Below are positions 2,301 to 11,987 of a DNA stretch of 44,964 bases, piece by piece (the stretch's first letter is position 1; the number at the start of each line of letters is the position of its first letter). The position numbers and the translations under genes were made by a program. Under the pieces are notes generated by a model. It ran no database searches. It was given only the letters and a program-made list of their open reading frames with translations, and had not been told where the DNA came from. Origin of the DNA: Herminiimonas sp. (GTDB lineage Bacteria > Pseudomonadota > Gammaproteobacteria > Burkholderiales > Burkholderiaceae_D); the NCBI GenBank assembly GCA_028292315.1, contig JAQGMO010000170.1:1-44964 (forward strand), given 5' to 3'.

Positions 2301-3674
2301 CTAAGCCACTTTCGCCGCTTTCAGGTTCAACCCAAGCTCTTCCGCAAAGGTCGCTTCCATCTCGCGCCGGAACCGCACCGGCAGGGCATCCTCGCTGAAC
2401 GCCACATCGGCCCAACCGACCGTCGCGCCGGCCTTTACCGCCCGCGTCACCTTCAGCCCGTGGGCCAGACCGAGCGGCAAGCCGCCGGCGCGCAAGGACT
2501 CGTCGGCCGGCAGTAACTTGCCATAGACGGTAAACCCGCCTTCACCGTCCAGCATCTCGCCGGGCGCCAGATCGCGCTTGGCCGTCGCAACCACGTCACC
2601 GTGCCAGCAGACCGGGGCGCCGGTTGATTCGCCGCGCAGGCCGATCGACGCCACGCTGATCCCCAGTTCAAGGCCGATCAGGTGAAACGGCTTATACATG
2701 GATGAATATTTTCCACTCGGGTCTGTCACGAGGCCGTATTCCCTGAAACAGCGTTCGACGTAGTTGCTGCCGGCCGCGAAGGTCACATACACCCCCCAGC
2801 GCAAATCGCGGAACACCGGCCGCGAATCGCGTTCAAGGCTCGAGATCACCTCGACCTGGCCGCGATGCGCCAGTATCCCGCCATCTTCGCGCGGCTTCAG
2901 CACGCGCGCCAGGTCATCGACCCCCACCGATGGAAAAGCCAGGCCGCGCGGTGCGGCAAGCCCGGTGGCATTGGCCACCGCAGCCATTTCGATGGCGCTC
3001 TTGGTCCCATCCAGGAAGCTGTTGAACATTTGCGCATTCATGCCACCCGCTTTGGCATCCTCTGCCGTCAATCCGTAATGTTGCCAGACCGTATCAGGGG
3101 TCGATGCATGATACGCCGGGAGATACTTGGTCCCCTTGCCGGCGGCGATCACCTCGAAGCCGGCGGCGCGCGCCCAGTCGACCATTTCGCAAATCAGCGC
3201 GGGCTGGTCGCCGTAAGCCAGCGAATAGACAATGCCGGCGGCGTCGGCTTTGCGCTTCAACAGTGGCCCCGCGAGGGCATCCGCCTCGACATTGACCATG
3301 ATGATGTGCTTCTTGTGCTCGCAGCACGCCAGCACGTGGGCTATGCCCGCGCCCGGGTGCCCGGTGGCGTCGATGATGATGTCGATGAAGGGCGATGCAA
3401 TCAGCGCCATGCTGTCTTCTATGATTGCCGTGCGGCCGTTCCTGGCGGCCTGTTCGAGCGATCCGGTATCGAGGCGTTCCGTGCTCCAGCCGACGTTTTC
3501 AAGCGCGGCGCGGGCTCGTGCCGGCTGCAGGTCGGCGATGCCGACCAGGTGGATGCCCGGGGTGCGCGGCACCTGGGACAAGTACATCGAGCCGAATTTT
3601 CCGGCGCCTATCAATCCCACTCTTAACGGCTTGCCTTGCGCGGCGCGTGCTTCCAGTCTTGCGAACAAATTCAT
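2301..3674 (-). CDS. NAD(P)-dependent homoserine-dehydrogenase-like oxidoreductase with SAF domain
   Basis: 457 residues. The N-terminal Rossmann fold shows LRVGLIGAGKFGSMYL (around residues 17-32), the NAD(P) dinucleotide-binding glycine motif. The middle part (IIDATGHPGAG, IIMVNVEADALAGPLL, YGDQPALICEMVDWAR) matches the homoserine-dehydrogenase-like/DRL group of dehydrogenases often named in sugar-acid or polyol gene clusters. The C-terminal 100 residues look like an SAF domain (AKRDLAPGEMLDGEGG, then LPLGLAHGLKVTRAVKAG). Such proteins are sometimes mislabelled FlgA because of that domain. AGGAGA sits 6 nt before the ATG. The substrate is unknown. It follows the SulP permease by 70 bp on the same strand and has its own terminator. 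Confidence 0.82.
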   Translation of the reverse strand: MNLFARLEARAAQGKPLRVGLIGAGKFGSMYLSQVPRTPGIHLVGIADLQPARARAALENVGWSTERLDTGSLEQAARNGRTAIIEDSMALIASPFIDIIIDATGHPGAGIAHVLACCEHKKHIIMVNVEADALAGPLLKRKADAAGIVYSLAYGDQPALICEMVDWARAAGFEVIAAGKGTKYLPAYHASTPDTVWQHYGLTAEDAKAGGMNAQMFNSFLDGTKSAIEMAAVANATGLAAPRGLAFPSVGVDDLARVLKPREDGGILAHRGQVEVISSLERDSRPVFRDLRWGVYVTFAAGSNYVERCFREYGLVTDPSGKYSSMYKPFHLIGLELGISVASIGLRGESTGAPVCWHGDVVATAKRDLAPGEMLDGEGGFTVYGKLLPADESLRAGGLPLGLAHGLKVTRAVKAGATVGWADVAFSEDALPVRFRREMEATFAEELGLNLKAAKVA

Positions 3675-3745
3675 GCTTGTCTCCTGATAGTTGTCATTGC
3701 CGCCGTTGCGGCGTCTTTATTGGTCCCTGATGAATACAAACTAAC

Positions 3746-8380: not shown

Positions 8381-9397
8381 ATGAATGAACGACACGCAGG
8401 TCGCGCCGATGTCTCGCTGCAGATGGAGCTTATTCTCTACGAGGTAAAGAAAGTCGTGGTCGGCCAGGATCATTTCCTGGAACGGGTGCTGGTCGCCATG
8501 CTGGCGCAGGGACACTTGCTGGTCGAAGGGGTTCCCGGCCTGGCAAAGACCCTGACCATCAACACGCTGGCGCGCACTATTCGGGGCACGTTCAAGCGGA
8601 TCCAGTTTACCCCCGACCTGGTGCCGGCCGACCTGGTCGGCACCCGCATCTATAATCAGAAGACCGGCGAATTCGGCACCACCTTCGGTCCAGTGTTCGC
8701 GAATCTGCTGCTGGCCGATGAAATCAACCGCGCGCCGGCCAAGGTGCAGAGCGCATTGCTCGAGGTCATGCAGGAGTACCAGGTTACCATTGCCGGCGAA
8801 AGCCACCCGGTGCCGAAGCCGTTCCTGGTGATGGCGACTCAGAACCCGATTGAAACGGAAGGCACCTATCCTTTGCCGGAAGCGCAGGTGGACCGGTTCA
8901 TGATGAAGGTTCTGGTCGGTTACCCGACCGAGGAAGAGGAATTCGTGATCGTCAACCGCGTGACCGGTCCGGCGGCGGCGGTTGCCGCGGTGTCGAGCAC
9001 CGAGCAGCTGGCGCAGCTTCAGCAGGAATGCCGTTCGGGCTACGTCGATCCTGCGCTGGTGCAGTATGCGGTGCGCCTGGTGTCGGCCACGCGCAATCCC
9101 GAACGCTATGGCGTGCCGAACGTGGCGCAATATCTTACCTACGGCGCCAGTCCGCGCGCAACGATTCACCTGGTGGAGGGGGCGCGTGCGCTGGCGTTCC
9201 TGCGCGGACGCACCTATGTTCTGCCGGAAGACATGATCGATATCGCGCCCGACGTGTTGCGGCACCGGTTGTCGCTGTCCTATGAGGCCTTGTCGGATTC
9301 GCTTACGCCGGATCAGTTGATCCACCGAATCATGAAACACATGCCCGCGCCCGAGAGGCCGCTCGAGACCCATGTCAAAGTTGACGCCGACGCCTGA
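8381..9397 (+). CDS. MoxR-family AAA+ ATPase
   Basis: 338 residues, the normal length. Walker A is GVPGLAKT (50-57), Walker B LLLADE (109-114), followed by INRAPAKVQSALLEVMQEYQ and the sensor-1 region FLVMATQNPIETEGTYPLPEAQ, all typical of the MoxR/RavA branch. The C-terminal lid contains GASPRATIHLVEGARALA. MoxR proteins act as chaperones for metal insertion or assembly of partner complexes and are nearly always encoded with DUF58 and von Willebrand A proteins, as here. The 3' end overlaps the next gene by 26 bp. Confidence 0.95.
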   Translation: MNERHAGRADVSLQMELILYEVKKVVVGQDHFLERVLVAMLAQGHLLVEGVPGLAKTLTINTLARTIRGTFKRIQFTPDLVPADLVGTRIYNQKTGEFGTTFGPVFANLLLADEINRAPAKVQSALLEVMQEYQVTIAGESHPVPKPFLVMATQNPIETEGTYPLPEAQVDRFMMKVLVGYPTEEEEFVIVNRVTGPAAAVAAVSSTEQLAQLQQECRSGYVDPALVQYAVRLVSATRNPERYGVPNVAQYLTYGASPRATIHLVEGARALAFLRGRTYVLPEDMIDIAPDVLRHRLSLSYEALSDSLTPDQLIHRIMKHMPAPERPLETHVKVDADA

Positions 9398-10307
9398 AGC
9401 CATGCTGCGGCGGCTCGAATGGACGGTGATACGCCGTCTTGATGGCTTGCTGCATGGAAATTATCAAACGCTGTTTCGCGGCTACGGCATCGATCTGGCG
9501 GACTTGCGCGAGTATCAGTATCACGATGATGTCCGTCATATCGACTGGAATGTCACTGCGCGCCTGCAGACGCCCTATGTGAGGGTGTTTAACGAGGAGC
9601 GTGATCTCAATGCCTGGTTTTTGCTGGACCTGAGCGCGTCGGTCGATTTTGGTTCGCGCGACCTGAGCAAGCGCGCGATCTCGGCCGAGTTCGTGACCGT
9701 TCTGGCGCGCGTTCTCGGACGCCACGGTAATCGGGTGGGGGCGATGTTCTACGGCACCAGCGTCGATACCGTGATTCCGGCGCGCACCGGACGGCGCCAG
9801 GCGCTGCATATCCTGCACAAGATGCAGGAGCGGCCGCCACTGACGCAGTCCGCCGCCACCAATCTGGGCGATCTGCTGAAATCGGCTTTTCAGGCGATCC
9901 CGCGGCGCTCGCTGGTTTTCGTGGTGTCGGATTTCATCAGCCAGCCGGGCTGGGCGAAGCCGTTGGCGCAGCTGGCACAGCGCCACGAGGTGATTGCAGT
10001 CCGGCTTTACGACAGCCTGGAGATGCGCCTGCCGGATCTTGGTTTACTGGTGATCCAGGATGCCGAAACAGGCGAACAATTGTTCGTAGATACGCACGAC
10101 CGCGGATTCCGCACCCGTTTCGAGGCGCTCGCCGCGAACCGCGAGGAGGAACTGCGGGAGGGCTTTCGGCATGCCGGCGTGGATGCGCTGGAACTGGCGA
10201 CCGACGATAATGTTCTGGATGCGATCCTGCGATTTGCCGACCTGCGCAAGCAGCGCAGCCGATTGGCTGCGGGCGGCAGCCTGCCTAAACACCTGGAGCC
10301 TGCATGA
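9372..10307 (+). CDS. DUF58 domain protein
   Basis: 311 residues. The DUF58 signature is clear: GIDLADLREYQYHDDVRHID, then WNVTARLQTPYVRVFNEERD and LDLSASVDFG, the last resembling a degenerate metal-ion-dependent adhesion site. No signal peptide or membrane segment. It overlaps the MoxR gene by 26 bp and the VWA gene by 4 bp (ATGA), so the three are translationally coupled. It probably acts as MoxR client or partner together with the membrane VWA protein; the process served is unknown. Confidence 0.92.
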   Translation: MSKLTPTPEAMLRRLEWTVIRRLDGLLHGNYQTLFRGYGIDLADLREYQYHDDVRHIDWNVTARLQTPYVRVFNEERDLNAWFLLDLSASVDFGSRDLSKRAISAEFVTVLARVLGRHGNRVGAMFYGTSVDTVIPARTGRRQALHILHKMQERPPLTQSAATNLGDLLKSAFQAIPRRSLVFVVSDFISQPGWAKPLAQLAQRHEVIAVRLYDSLEMRLPDLGLLVIQDAETGEQLFVDTHDRGFRTRFEALAANREEELREGFRHAGVDALELATDDNVLDAILRFADLRKQRSRLAAGGSLPKHLEPA

Positions 10308-11362
10308 ACTTCCTGTGGCCTGAAATGCTTTGGTTGATGCTGATCGTGCCGGCGCTGGTGGCGGCATATCTGATGATTTTGCGGCGCAAGAGAAAGCAGG
10401 CGTTACACTATGCCAGCTTCGCTTTGCTCAAACAGGCGCTGGGGCCGACCCAGGGCGGGCGGCGCCATGTGCCGCCGCTGCTGTTCCTGCTGGCGCTGAC
10501 CTCCATGGTGTTTGCGATCGCCCGGCCGGCCGCGGTGATTACACTGCCGTCGCAGTATGAAACCGTGATTCTCGCGATCGACGTATCCGGCAGCATGCGG
10601 GCCAACGATGTCGCGCCGACCCGGATTGCCGCCGCCGAAGCGGCCGCGCGCAGCTTTGTGGCCGCTCAGCCGCGCACCACCCGCCTGGGACTGGTCACTT
10701 TTGCCGGCACCGCGTCCGTGGTACAGGCGCCGACCCTGAGCCGGGAAGATATCCTGGCGGCGATGGAGCGGTTTCAACTGCAGCATGGCACGGCGGTCGG
10801 AAGCGGCATCCTGGTTTCGCTCAAGACGATTTTTCCCGACATCGAATTTGACCTGCGCGCCTCCAATCCGCGCCCGAACGGCCAGCGCGACGCTGCTTCC
10901 CGCAGCGGTTCGCTCGATCAGAGGCCCAAGGGCGATTCGCCTGAATTCAAGCCGGTGGCGCCCGGTTCCTACGGCTCCGCAGTCATCATCCTTCTGACGG
11001 ATGGCCAGACTACCACCGGCCCCGACCCGATCGAGGCGTCCAAAATGGCGGCGGAACGCGGGGTCAAGGTTTTCACGGTCGGGATCGGCACGGCAAACGG
11101 CGAGATCCTGGGAGCGGAGGGCTGGTCGATGCGGGTCCGGCTCGATGAGGATTCGCTGAAAAAAATCGCCAGTCTGACCAATGCCGAATACTTTTATGCC
11201 GGAACGGCGGTCGATTTGACCAAGATTTACCAAACCCTGCATTCCAAACTGGTGATGGAAAAGAAGGAAACCGAAATTACTGCACTGTTCGCGGCGGCAG
11301 GGGCCTTGTTGGCAATGCTGTCCGCATTGCTGTCGATGCTGTGGTTTAACCGAATATTGTAA
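10304..11362 (+). CDS. BatA-like membrane protein with von Willebrand A domain
   Basis: 352 residues. Two N-terminal membrane segments (about 5-25 and 57-78), a VWA domain with MIDAS motif DVSGS (93-97), LVTFAG and ILLTDGQTTTG, and a C-terminal membrane segment in the last 30 residues. An insertion of about 40 polar residues precedes the LLTDGQ strand (around residues 185-225), as in some other proteobacterial BatA homologues. It closes the MoxR-DUF58-VWA operon. The domain would face the periplasm or the cytoplasm depending on topology; homologues help assemble or stabilise envelope complexes. Confidence 0.9.
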   Translation: MNFLWPEMLWLMLIVPALVAAYLMILRRKRKQALHYASFALLKQALGPTQGGRRHVPPLLFLLALTSMVFAIARPAAVITLPSQYETVILAIDVSGSMRANDVAPTRIAAAEAAARSFVAAQPRTTRLGLVTFAGTASVVQAPTLSREDILAAMERFQLQHGTAVGSGILVSLKTIFPDIEFDLRASNPRPNGQRDAASRSGSLDQRPKGDSPEFKPVAPGSYGSAVIILLTDGQTTTGPDPIEASKMAAERGVKVFTVGIGTANGEILGAEGWSMRVRLDEDSLKKIASLTNAEYFYAGTAVDLTKIYQTLHSKLVMEKKETEITALFAAAGALLAMLSALLSMLWFNRIL

Positions 11363-11510: not shown

Positions 11511-11810
11511 ATGGAAGAACAATCATTAGAAGAACAGAACTACGATCCAAATCGCCTGCTCGATGCCTTGATTAAAAAGCTGGAACTGAAAAACGATGCC
11601 GCGCTGGCGCGGGCCCTCGATATCGCGCCGCCGCTGCTTAGTAAAATCCGCCATCGGAGGTTGCCGGTCGGTGCTTCGCTGCTGATTCGCATGTATGAAG
11701 CAAGCGATCTCAGCATCAAGGAATTGCGCGCGATCATGGGAGATCGCCGGACCAAGGTCCGGATCAGTGAGGCCGATGGCAGACCGAAGACAGACGGCAA
11801 AAAAGAGTAA
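11511..11810 (+). CDS. Small helix-turn-helix protein (XRE-like)
   Basis: About 100 residues. The centre has an XRE-like helix-turn-helix (LLDALIKKLELKNDAALARA, then IAPPLLSKIRHRRLPVGAS), followed by LLIRMYEASDLSIKELRAIM. Start choice: ATG at 11511 has GGAG 5 nt upstream; ATG at 11478 would add 11 residues with a poorly spaced AGGAAAG. The C-terminal tail is Lys/Asp-rich. Its spacing from the VWA gene (about 115 bp) suggests its own promoter. A candidate anti-SD small RNA follows 80 bp downstream. The regulated genes are not evident. Confidence 0.78.
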   Translation: MEEQSLEEQNYDPNRLLDALIKKLELKNDAALARALDIAPPLLSKIRHRRLPVGASLLIRMYEASDLSIKELRAIMGDRRTKVRISEADGRPKTDGKKE

Positions 11811-11881
11811 GTTTTTTAAAAATATTAAATTTTTCTGCGCGTTGTGTTAAATGGCGCACAGATAAGCGGAGACCTTTGCGA

Positions 11882-11960
11882 TATAGTGAAGTTGTCTCCT
11901 CCTCCCGCTTCCGGGATGGATTTAGCCCGCATCGCCCATGACCGGCTGCGGGCTTTTTTT
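11882..11960 (+). ncRNA. Candidate anti-Shine-Dalgarno small RNA with terminator
   Basis: A -10-like TATAGT at 11882-11887 is followed by a probable transcript of about 70 nt from near 11891. Its 5' part contains the pyrimidine stretch TCTCCTCCTCCC, which has the CCTCC anti-SD core of 16S rRNA twice. Then comes a strong intrinsic terminator: AGCCCGCA (11924-11931), 15-nt loop, TGCGGGCT (11947-11954) and T7. There is no ORF with a ribosome site. This arrangement recalls the 'Betaproteobacteria toxic small RNA' family in Rfam, whose toxicity was linked to an anti-SD sequence. The family match is from memory of its features, not from a search. No good -35 is visible. Confidence 0.6.
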
Positions 11961-11987
11961 CGTTTTAATTGACAAATCTGCCGCTGG

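Follow-up and report, generated by a model that had tools for sequence, protein, structure and literature searches.

The stretch of DNA analysed here, referred to below as the window, comprises 44,964 nucleotides from a Herminiimonas sp. whose genome spans 4.8 Mb in 402 contigs, and the element in question is a short segment of its forward strand that most likely encodes a divergent copy of RF02278, a known family of small RNAs (sRNAs). The segment lies behind a gene for a small protein with a putative helix-turn-helix (HTH) domain, which is itself preceded by MoxR-type ATPase, DUF58 and VWA genes (Table 1).

Table 1. Features of the window discussed in the text
Feature	Position	Strand	Basis or remark
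Small RNA, divergent RF02278-type, about 69 nt	11893..11961	+	covariance-model match
-10-like TATAGT	11882..11887	+	5 nt upstream of RNA start; no -35 seen
Site 1, UGUCUCCUCC, conserved 5' stretch, putatively anti-ribosome-binding-site	11893..11902	+	conservation, fold; function from PMC11722255
Hairpin 1, with a short CUUC loop in place of the usual CU-rich Site 2	11900..11920	+	predicted fold
Intrinsic terminator hairpin and T run	11924..11960	+	fold, sequence
GGAGAC, complement of GUCUCC in Site 1	11868..11873	+	fold of 11811-11964
Small HTH protein, 99 aa (or 110 aa from 11478)	11511..11810	+	open reading frame; possible host mRNA
Candidate target site GGAGACAAGCATG	3672..3684	-	pattern search; start of oxidoreductase-like gene (~2301-3674)
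MoxR-type ATPase, DUF58 and BatA-type VWA genes	8381-11362		upstream of HTH gene

The original prediction, made from the sequence alone, had described a -10-like box, a terminator, a twofold CCTCC and no open reading frame (ORF) at this place. The box and the terminator are as described: TATAGT is followed by TGTCTCCTCCTCCCGCTTCCGGGATGGATTTAGCCCGC and then by a GC-rich stem (11924-11954) and a T run ending at 11960, with seven T at 11954-11960, the first of which is paired. Neither appears among the promoters and terminators listed by consensus scans, in the case of the terminator presumably because the stem is interrupted. The 76-nt strand 11889-11964 is predicted to fold into two hairpins at -29.3 kcal/mol (z -3.32; none of 200 shuffles does as well), leaving UGUCUCC (11893-11899) unpaired. 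As for the CCTCC, two overlapping copies are indeed contained in TCTCCTCCTCCC downstream of TATAGT, but the second sits inside a predicted stem, so that the free part is UGUCUCC only. The absence of an ORF, in turn, holds in a qualified sense: a GTG frame of 42 codons (11844-11972) crosses the RNA, but it extends across the terminator and makes an unconvincing gene.

Family assignment and conservation

The original prediction had guessed at the betaproteobacterial toxic sRNA family, and a search with the Rfam covariance models (cmscan) bears this out. Namely, RF02278, "Betaproteobacteria toxic small RNA", matches the segment on the forward strand at full length (model positions 1-64 of 64) with 47.8 bits and an E-value of 6.9e-9 in the 271 bases scanned, or 2.9e-8 genome-wide. 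This is 2.2 bits short of the gathering cut-off of 50 bits, and a scan of the window at Rfam gathering cut-offs consequently yields no match. The runner-up in the scanned stretch is anti-hemB (E 0.062), ar14 (RF02344) scores 17.9 bits against the 58.8 needed (E 0.21), and none of 14 control genomes matches RF02278. Apart from the full-length match in sequence and structure, the segment has the single-stranded 5' UGUCUCC and the terminator as hairpin 2 that are features of the family; what it does not have is the CU-rich loop of hairpin 1, known as Site 2 in the RNA S17 of Bordetella pertussis, in place of which stands CUUC. As both the cut-off and the loop fail, we call the segment a variant that would work like RF02278. 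The find is correct but ordinary: by its sequence, the segment most likely belongs to a known sRNA family, as a diverged copy that scores below the threshold.

The window copy has company. In the source genome there are ten RF02278 matches at E <= 0.001, four above the cut-off and six below it, and therefore annotation based on the cut-off would undercount a large sRNA family. A second model, R1, derived from 35 copies, among them nine of the ten source-genome copies with the window copy included, recovers the same ten, with the window copy at 54.8 bits; R1 is nearly sequence-only, since RNAalifold on the MAFFT alignment gave just 3 pairs. Across 60 genomes (the source and 59 relatives), 48 have an RF02278 match, 40 of them above the cut-off, with up to 19 matches per genome. 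Copies may also stand in tandem or in clusters of 2-3 per stretch, as in L107, L117 and L099 (genomes G014, G001 and G005, respectively), where most have their own upstream block; in L107, three copies lie inside 440 bases.

Conservation was evaluated on 113 collected copies, reduced to 112 by the removal of one without the full core (L067). The original prediction had proposed conservation of the pyrimidine core as a check, and the core is kept in all 112 copies, a sample found by the RF02278 model or a derivative favouring that core and hence not an unbiased one. In particular, GUCUC (positions 2-6) is identical throughout and position 9 is also invariant, position 10 is C in 74 copies and U in 38, and the whole 10-mer UGUCUCCUCC is identical in 64. 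Pairs in hairpin 1 were counted by a script, which picked the register with most pairs. Pair 1 (position 8) is U-A in 106 copies, A-U in 4 and U-G in 2, and pair 3 (position 10) is C-G in 74, U-A in 34, U-G in 3 and broken in 1; in other words, hairpin 1 carries compensatory, two-sided changes that keep its pairs. CTCC or CCTC within hairpin 1 is found in 84 of the 112 copies and is absent from the other 28, so that the CU-rich loop is not universal in RF02278. The window copy and two sisters, L069 and L070, have instead CTCCTCCTCCC leading into a short hairpin.

Upstream sequences and the neighbouring HTH gene

The -10-like TATAGT is placed as is usual for the RF02278 family: TANNNT occurs 3-8 nt upstream of the RNA in 57 of the 112 copies, the window's included, as against a mean of 14.9 and a maximum of 26 in 200 shuffles. 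A further element, which we call the operator, extends over some 46 conserved bp up to the -35 position and has the form GNTATTC-N8-ATATCTGATATC-N4-AAT-N2-AAATTGGAC or AAGCAGAC (examples are L110:236-281, L071:258-303 and L107:660-705). It precedes at least 67 of the 113 copies, plus some small-protein genes, and stands before five of the ten source-genome copies. Namely, the operator core matched 69 copies, two of which (L031 and L123) were taken as chance matches, and the resulting 67 is a lower bound because some of the remaining 44 copies show the block by eye. A common upstream motif is reported for three of the four RF02278 copies of B. cenocepacia (PMC5688073). The idea that the operator is a CysB/SsuR-like site was dropped, because no inspected match of the operator model R2 (built on 49 rows) preceded an obvious sulphur gene; in five genomes, the inspected matches away from RNAs precede small-protein or other genes. 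Two other upstream types were noticed. One, TTGCGATGCACAAT followed by a CTATAATT-like box, is seen in L072, L086, L104, L118, L119 and L031, and is placed far enough upstream for a longer precursor, as in Bordetella S17; the other, like TACCGTATTTTTAC-N-TATTGCGGTGCACCA, is seen in L003, L106 (second copy), L120, L129 and L097.

That the RNA lies beside a small HTH gene, as the original prediction had it, is correct insofar as the RNA starts 82 nt downstream of the stop codon of that gene (11810) on the same strand. The label 'HTH' rests on weak matches: the protein has no Pfam match, its HigA-like match (E 0.011) is below the cut-off of that model, and the best E-value against solved chains is 0.077. 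The protein itself is common, with 11 matches in the source genome and matches in 279 of the 294 genomes of the family, the source included, at E <= 1e-8. Its co-location with the RNA was evaluated in 20 genomes picked among those with RF02278 matches, the two richest (G005 and G022) being omitted. These hold 99 HTH matches and 133 RNA matches, and 9 of the former have one of the latter no more than 2 kb away, compared with 0.66 expected if placement were uniform. Among cold-shock genes, taken for comparison, 1 of 73 is within that distance of an RNA (one-sided Fisher p 0.03 at 2 kb and 0.06 at 0.5 kb). In genus g5, 6 of 12 fetched HTH loci have an RNA about 0.4-0.9 kb behind the gene. We conclude that the association of HTH gene and RNA beyond chance looks real. 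It is nevertheless an association without a mechanism, since the order of the two is mixed (same strand, before or behind, or divergent), and control of the RNA by the HTH protein, as had been suggested, is unproven. At L009 (Noviherbaspirillum suwonense), the only match to the HTH protein in the collection of named genomes, no RNA was found (Rfam E <= 0.01; R1 E <= 1).

Could the RNA lack an effective promoter of its own and instead be released by RNase E from the 3' end of the HTH-gene mRNA? No terminator is listed by the scan between the HTH stop and the RNA on their shared strand, and in the fold predicted for 11811-11964 (z -4.80, unequalled in 200 shuffles) Site 1 is paired, its GUCUCC being taken up by the upstream GGAGAC. 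As this GGAGAC would close Site 1 in the uncut mRNA, cutting would switch the RNA on. S17 offers a precedent, as RNase E produces it from a longer transcript (PMC11722255), and similar arrangements of gene and RNA are seen elsewhere. Namely, at the sister copy L070 the RNA follows 96 nt after the stop of a 102-aa small-protein gene, which has a weaker operator match upstream (E 0.006), and at L196, in another genome, a small-protein gene followed by the RNA occurs twice within 2.3 kb, with strong operator matches; from these two loci it follows that RF02278-family RNAs can sit just behind small genes. Against such an origin speak the -10-like box at its family-typical place, the lack of a constant order of HTH gene and RNA, and the genus g5 RNAs behind HTH genes, which probably have their own promoters because they carry the family operator upstream. 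On balance, we regard cleavage from the HTH mRNA as a possible but doubtful source of the RNA. The more specific proposal that the HTH gene and the RNA form one module, in which the RNA comes from the 3' end of a regulator mRNA with Site 1 closed by GGAGAC and opened by RNase cleavage, appears unlikely. Neither the HTH association nor the small-protein-gene arrangement was met in the literature on this RNA family, in which no search was aimed at either.

As a separate observation on such small genes, L070:1096-1404, L196:335-568 and 1166-1540, and L169:1108-1413 encode proteins of about 77-124 aa with AAELRxxAxR-like ends, which share the same kind of operator and have an RF02278-type RNA in the 3' region (a weak one, at 21.5 bits, in L169).

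Candidate targets and proposed mode of action

How such an RNA may act is best known from S17 of B. pertussis. This RNA is processed, largely by RNase E, to a 67-nt form, with the species S17S deriving from a 190-nt precursor via RNase E, and its level depends on Hfq (PMC11722255). It represses BP2158 directly through Site 1, as demonstrated by paired mutations in an E. coli reporter, in which two of four further candidates were unaffected; complementary sites are present in 70 of 91 candidate target genes, and the genes identified include 32 transporter-related genes or operons (PMC11722255). The pairing with Shine-Dalgarno sequences that the original prediction had envisaged is, therefore, an established mechanism in a relative. 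In B. cenocepacia, RNAs of the family are reported to be transcribed at about 57-92 nt, three double-hairpin RNAs (ncS03, ncS05 and ncS27) are raised in biofilm, starvation and glucose medium, and 55-80% of the interactions predicted for the double-hairpin RNAs are at the start region (PMC5688073); NcS27, according to a review, affects substrate use (PMC10987360).

The original prediction had also raised mimicry of the 16S rRNA 3' end and toxicity, and one may imagine a general, 16S-like anti-Shine-Dalgarno RNA that lowers protein synthesis from most mRNAs, acting as a true toxin or as a brake on growth. The CCUCC core would fit this picture, the family is said to owe its name to toxicity on introduction into E. 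coli (PMC4603805), and over-expression of ncS27 reportedly attenuates growth (PMC5688073). Mimicry is, on the other hand, less supported than pairing with particular mRNAs, which is what S17 is published to do (PMC11722255), and the conserved stretch extends beyond the CCUCC core to include UGUC. What is more, ten copies per genome would sit badly with strong toxicity. Of the toxicity claim there remains a modest effect: S17 left exponential growth of E. coli unimpaired and modestly impaired its entry into stationary phase (PMC11722255). The window RNA is thus probably not a general 16S mimic or a true toxin, and we hold that explanation to be very unlikely.

If the unpaired 5' UGUCUCC is used for pairing, ribosome-binding sites (RBSs) of the GGAGACA form should be its partners. 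The pattern GGAGACA-N3-9-ATG occurs 87 times in the source genome and 6 times when searched backwards, making up 87 of 725 GGAGNNA-N3-9-ATG matches (12%) as against 6 of 276 backward ones (2%). Once two sites that had been counted twice and one inside an RNA copy are allowed for, 84 remain. Of these, the first 69 as listed were read, and 54 ORFs of at least 60 aa were found behind them, compared with 26 behind the first 40 control sites (other GGAGNNA). The 54 include 14 TctC, 4 DctP and 4 Peripla_BP_6 proteins, 2 acyl-CoA dehydrogenases and 2 AMP-binding enzymes, and the 26 controls include 2 TctC and 1 DctP. Solute-binding proteins hence account for 22 of 54 ORFs behind GGAGACA and 3 of 26 behind controls (one-sided p 0.007, with the three families taken as disjoint; p 0.048 for TctC alone), a contrast that may be overstated because some of the uncurated ORFs are chance frames, which are commoner among the controls. 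A MerR regulator was also seen by eye behind GGAGACA in the source genome. In the window itself, the GGAGACAAGCATG site stands at the start of an oxidoreductase-like gene that may belong to the DRL_cat family, which 1 of the 54 ORFs matches, and could be targeted by the RNA.

Taken together, we consider it likely that 11893-11961 encodes a trans-acting, RBS-blocking RNA of the RF02278 or double-hairpin family, which acts on uptake and catabolic genes alongside nine sisters. Its unpaired UGUCUCC would pair with GGAGACA-form RBSs, probably with the assistance of Hfq, and this pairing would keep that set of genes from being translated. The computed evidence behind this consists of homology, copy number, the conserved core, compensatory changes, the terminator and the kind of gene behind GGAGACA. 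Transcription, processing, dependence on Hfq and direct repression through Site 1 have been demonstrated for relatives. The window copy would be expressed as well, arising either at its own -10 or through cleavage of the HTH mRNA, and would share the targets of its sisters through Site 1 only.

That said, a number of observations weigh against this interpretation, beginning with the sub-threshold score and the missing CU-rich loop described above. No -35-like hexamer was seen by eye 16-18 nt upstream of the -10, and the operator model R2 finds no match in the window at E up to 10. Nor is the location of the RNA conserved. Strong homologues of the upstream VWA gene (E <= 1e-40) occur in 12 of the 60 genomes, the source included, and no RNA copy lies within about 1.5 kb downstream of that gene in 20 homologous loci (L132-L151); one of them, L143, has two copies upstream of the VWA gene and a third about 3 kb downstream (L199), and the best VWA homologue outside the source genome (L198, 74%) has other genes at the corresponding place. 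Finally, the density of GGAGACA-ATG does not differ between the 48 genomes with RF02278 and the 12 without (p 0.48, or p 0.22 net of the backward control), so that GGAGACA must at least partly be an ordinary form of Shine-Dalgarno sequence. RNA copy number correlates with GGAGACA density (Spearman 0.38 in 60 genomes and 0.46 in 36 of one family, kinship and G+C being uncorrected). GGAGACA was consequently rejected as proof of targeting, as density tracks copy number, yet presence versus absence of the RNA makes no difference.

Is the window copy, then, a decayed and silent one, in which the family fold and core persist and transcription or use has been lost? The low score, the lack of a -35 and of an operator, the loss of Site 2 and the unconserved place would all agree with decay. 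The 5' core, hairpin 1 and the terminator are, however, all present, and the fold beats 200 of 200 shuffles, and we judge decay to be quite unlikely.

Comparison with known systems

The closest known relatives are the members of RF02278 themselves, that is the double-hairpin RNAs ncS03, ncS05, ncS27 and ncS62 of B. cenocepacia, with which the window RNA shares its length, two hairpins, the 5' UGUCUCCUCC, the terminator and occurrence in multiple copies. It differs from them in its score 2.2 bits under the cut-off, its short CUUC loop, the lack of the shared operator and its position behind an HTH gene. In another betaproteobacterium, Herbaspirillum seropedicae, the RF02278 RNAs Hsnc059, 063, 086 and 107 appear in a study of sRNA prediction and expression (PMC7011215), and these, unlike the window copy, score above the cut-off (59.6-64.7 bits). 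With S17/S17S of B. pertussis, the window copy has in common Site 1 and, likely, the mechanism of RBS pairing; transporters, a MerR regulator and an acyl-CoA dehydrogenase family gene are among the candidate targets of S17 (PMC11722255), and such kinds of genes also stand behind GGAGACA here. Site 2 of S17 is absent from the window copy, and the 190-nt precursor with its RNase E cleavage is a feature of S17S (PMC11722255).

Provided that the target signal holds, a genome may have as many as 19 copies that direct the same anti-RBS end at uptake genes but have different promoters and second loops, which would make them a natural system for studying how many near-identical sRNAs share out a single regulon. 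The above-chance proximity of HTH genes is, in turn, a lead on the control of RF02278-type RNAs.

A likeness of another kind exists with the alphaproteobacterial cuckoo RNAs CcsR1-4, which are reported as short RNAs that likewise lie behind a small-protein gene, that of CcaF1; they belong to another bacterial class, and their protein is of the DUF1127 type and not an HTH protein (PMC10253847, PMC8625941). The Rfam ar14 (RF02344) model carries CUCCUCCUCCC, as does the window RNA. Presumably, ar14 and CcsR belong together. Should the proposed HTH-RNA module prove true, betaproteobacteria would have their own equivalent of the CcaF1-CcsR cuckoo loci, and such modules would have arisen several times by the placing of RF02278 units behind small-protein genes.
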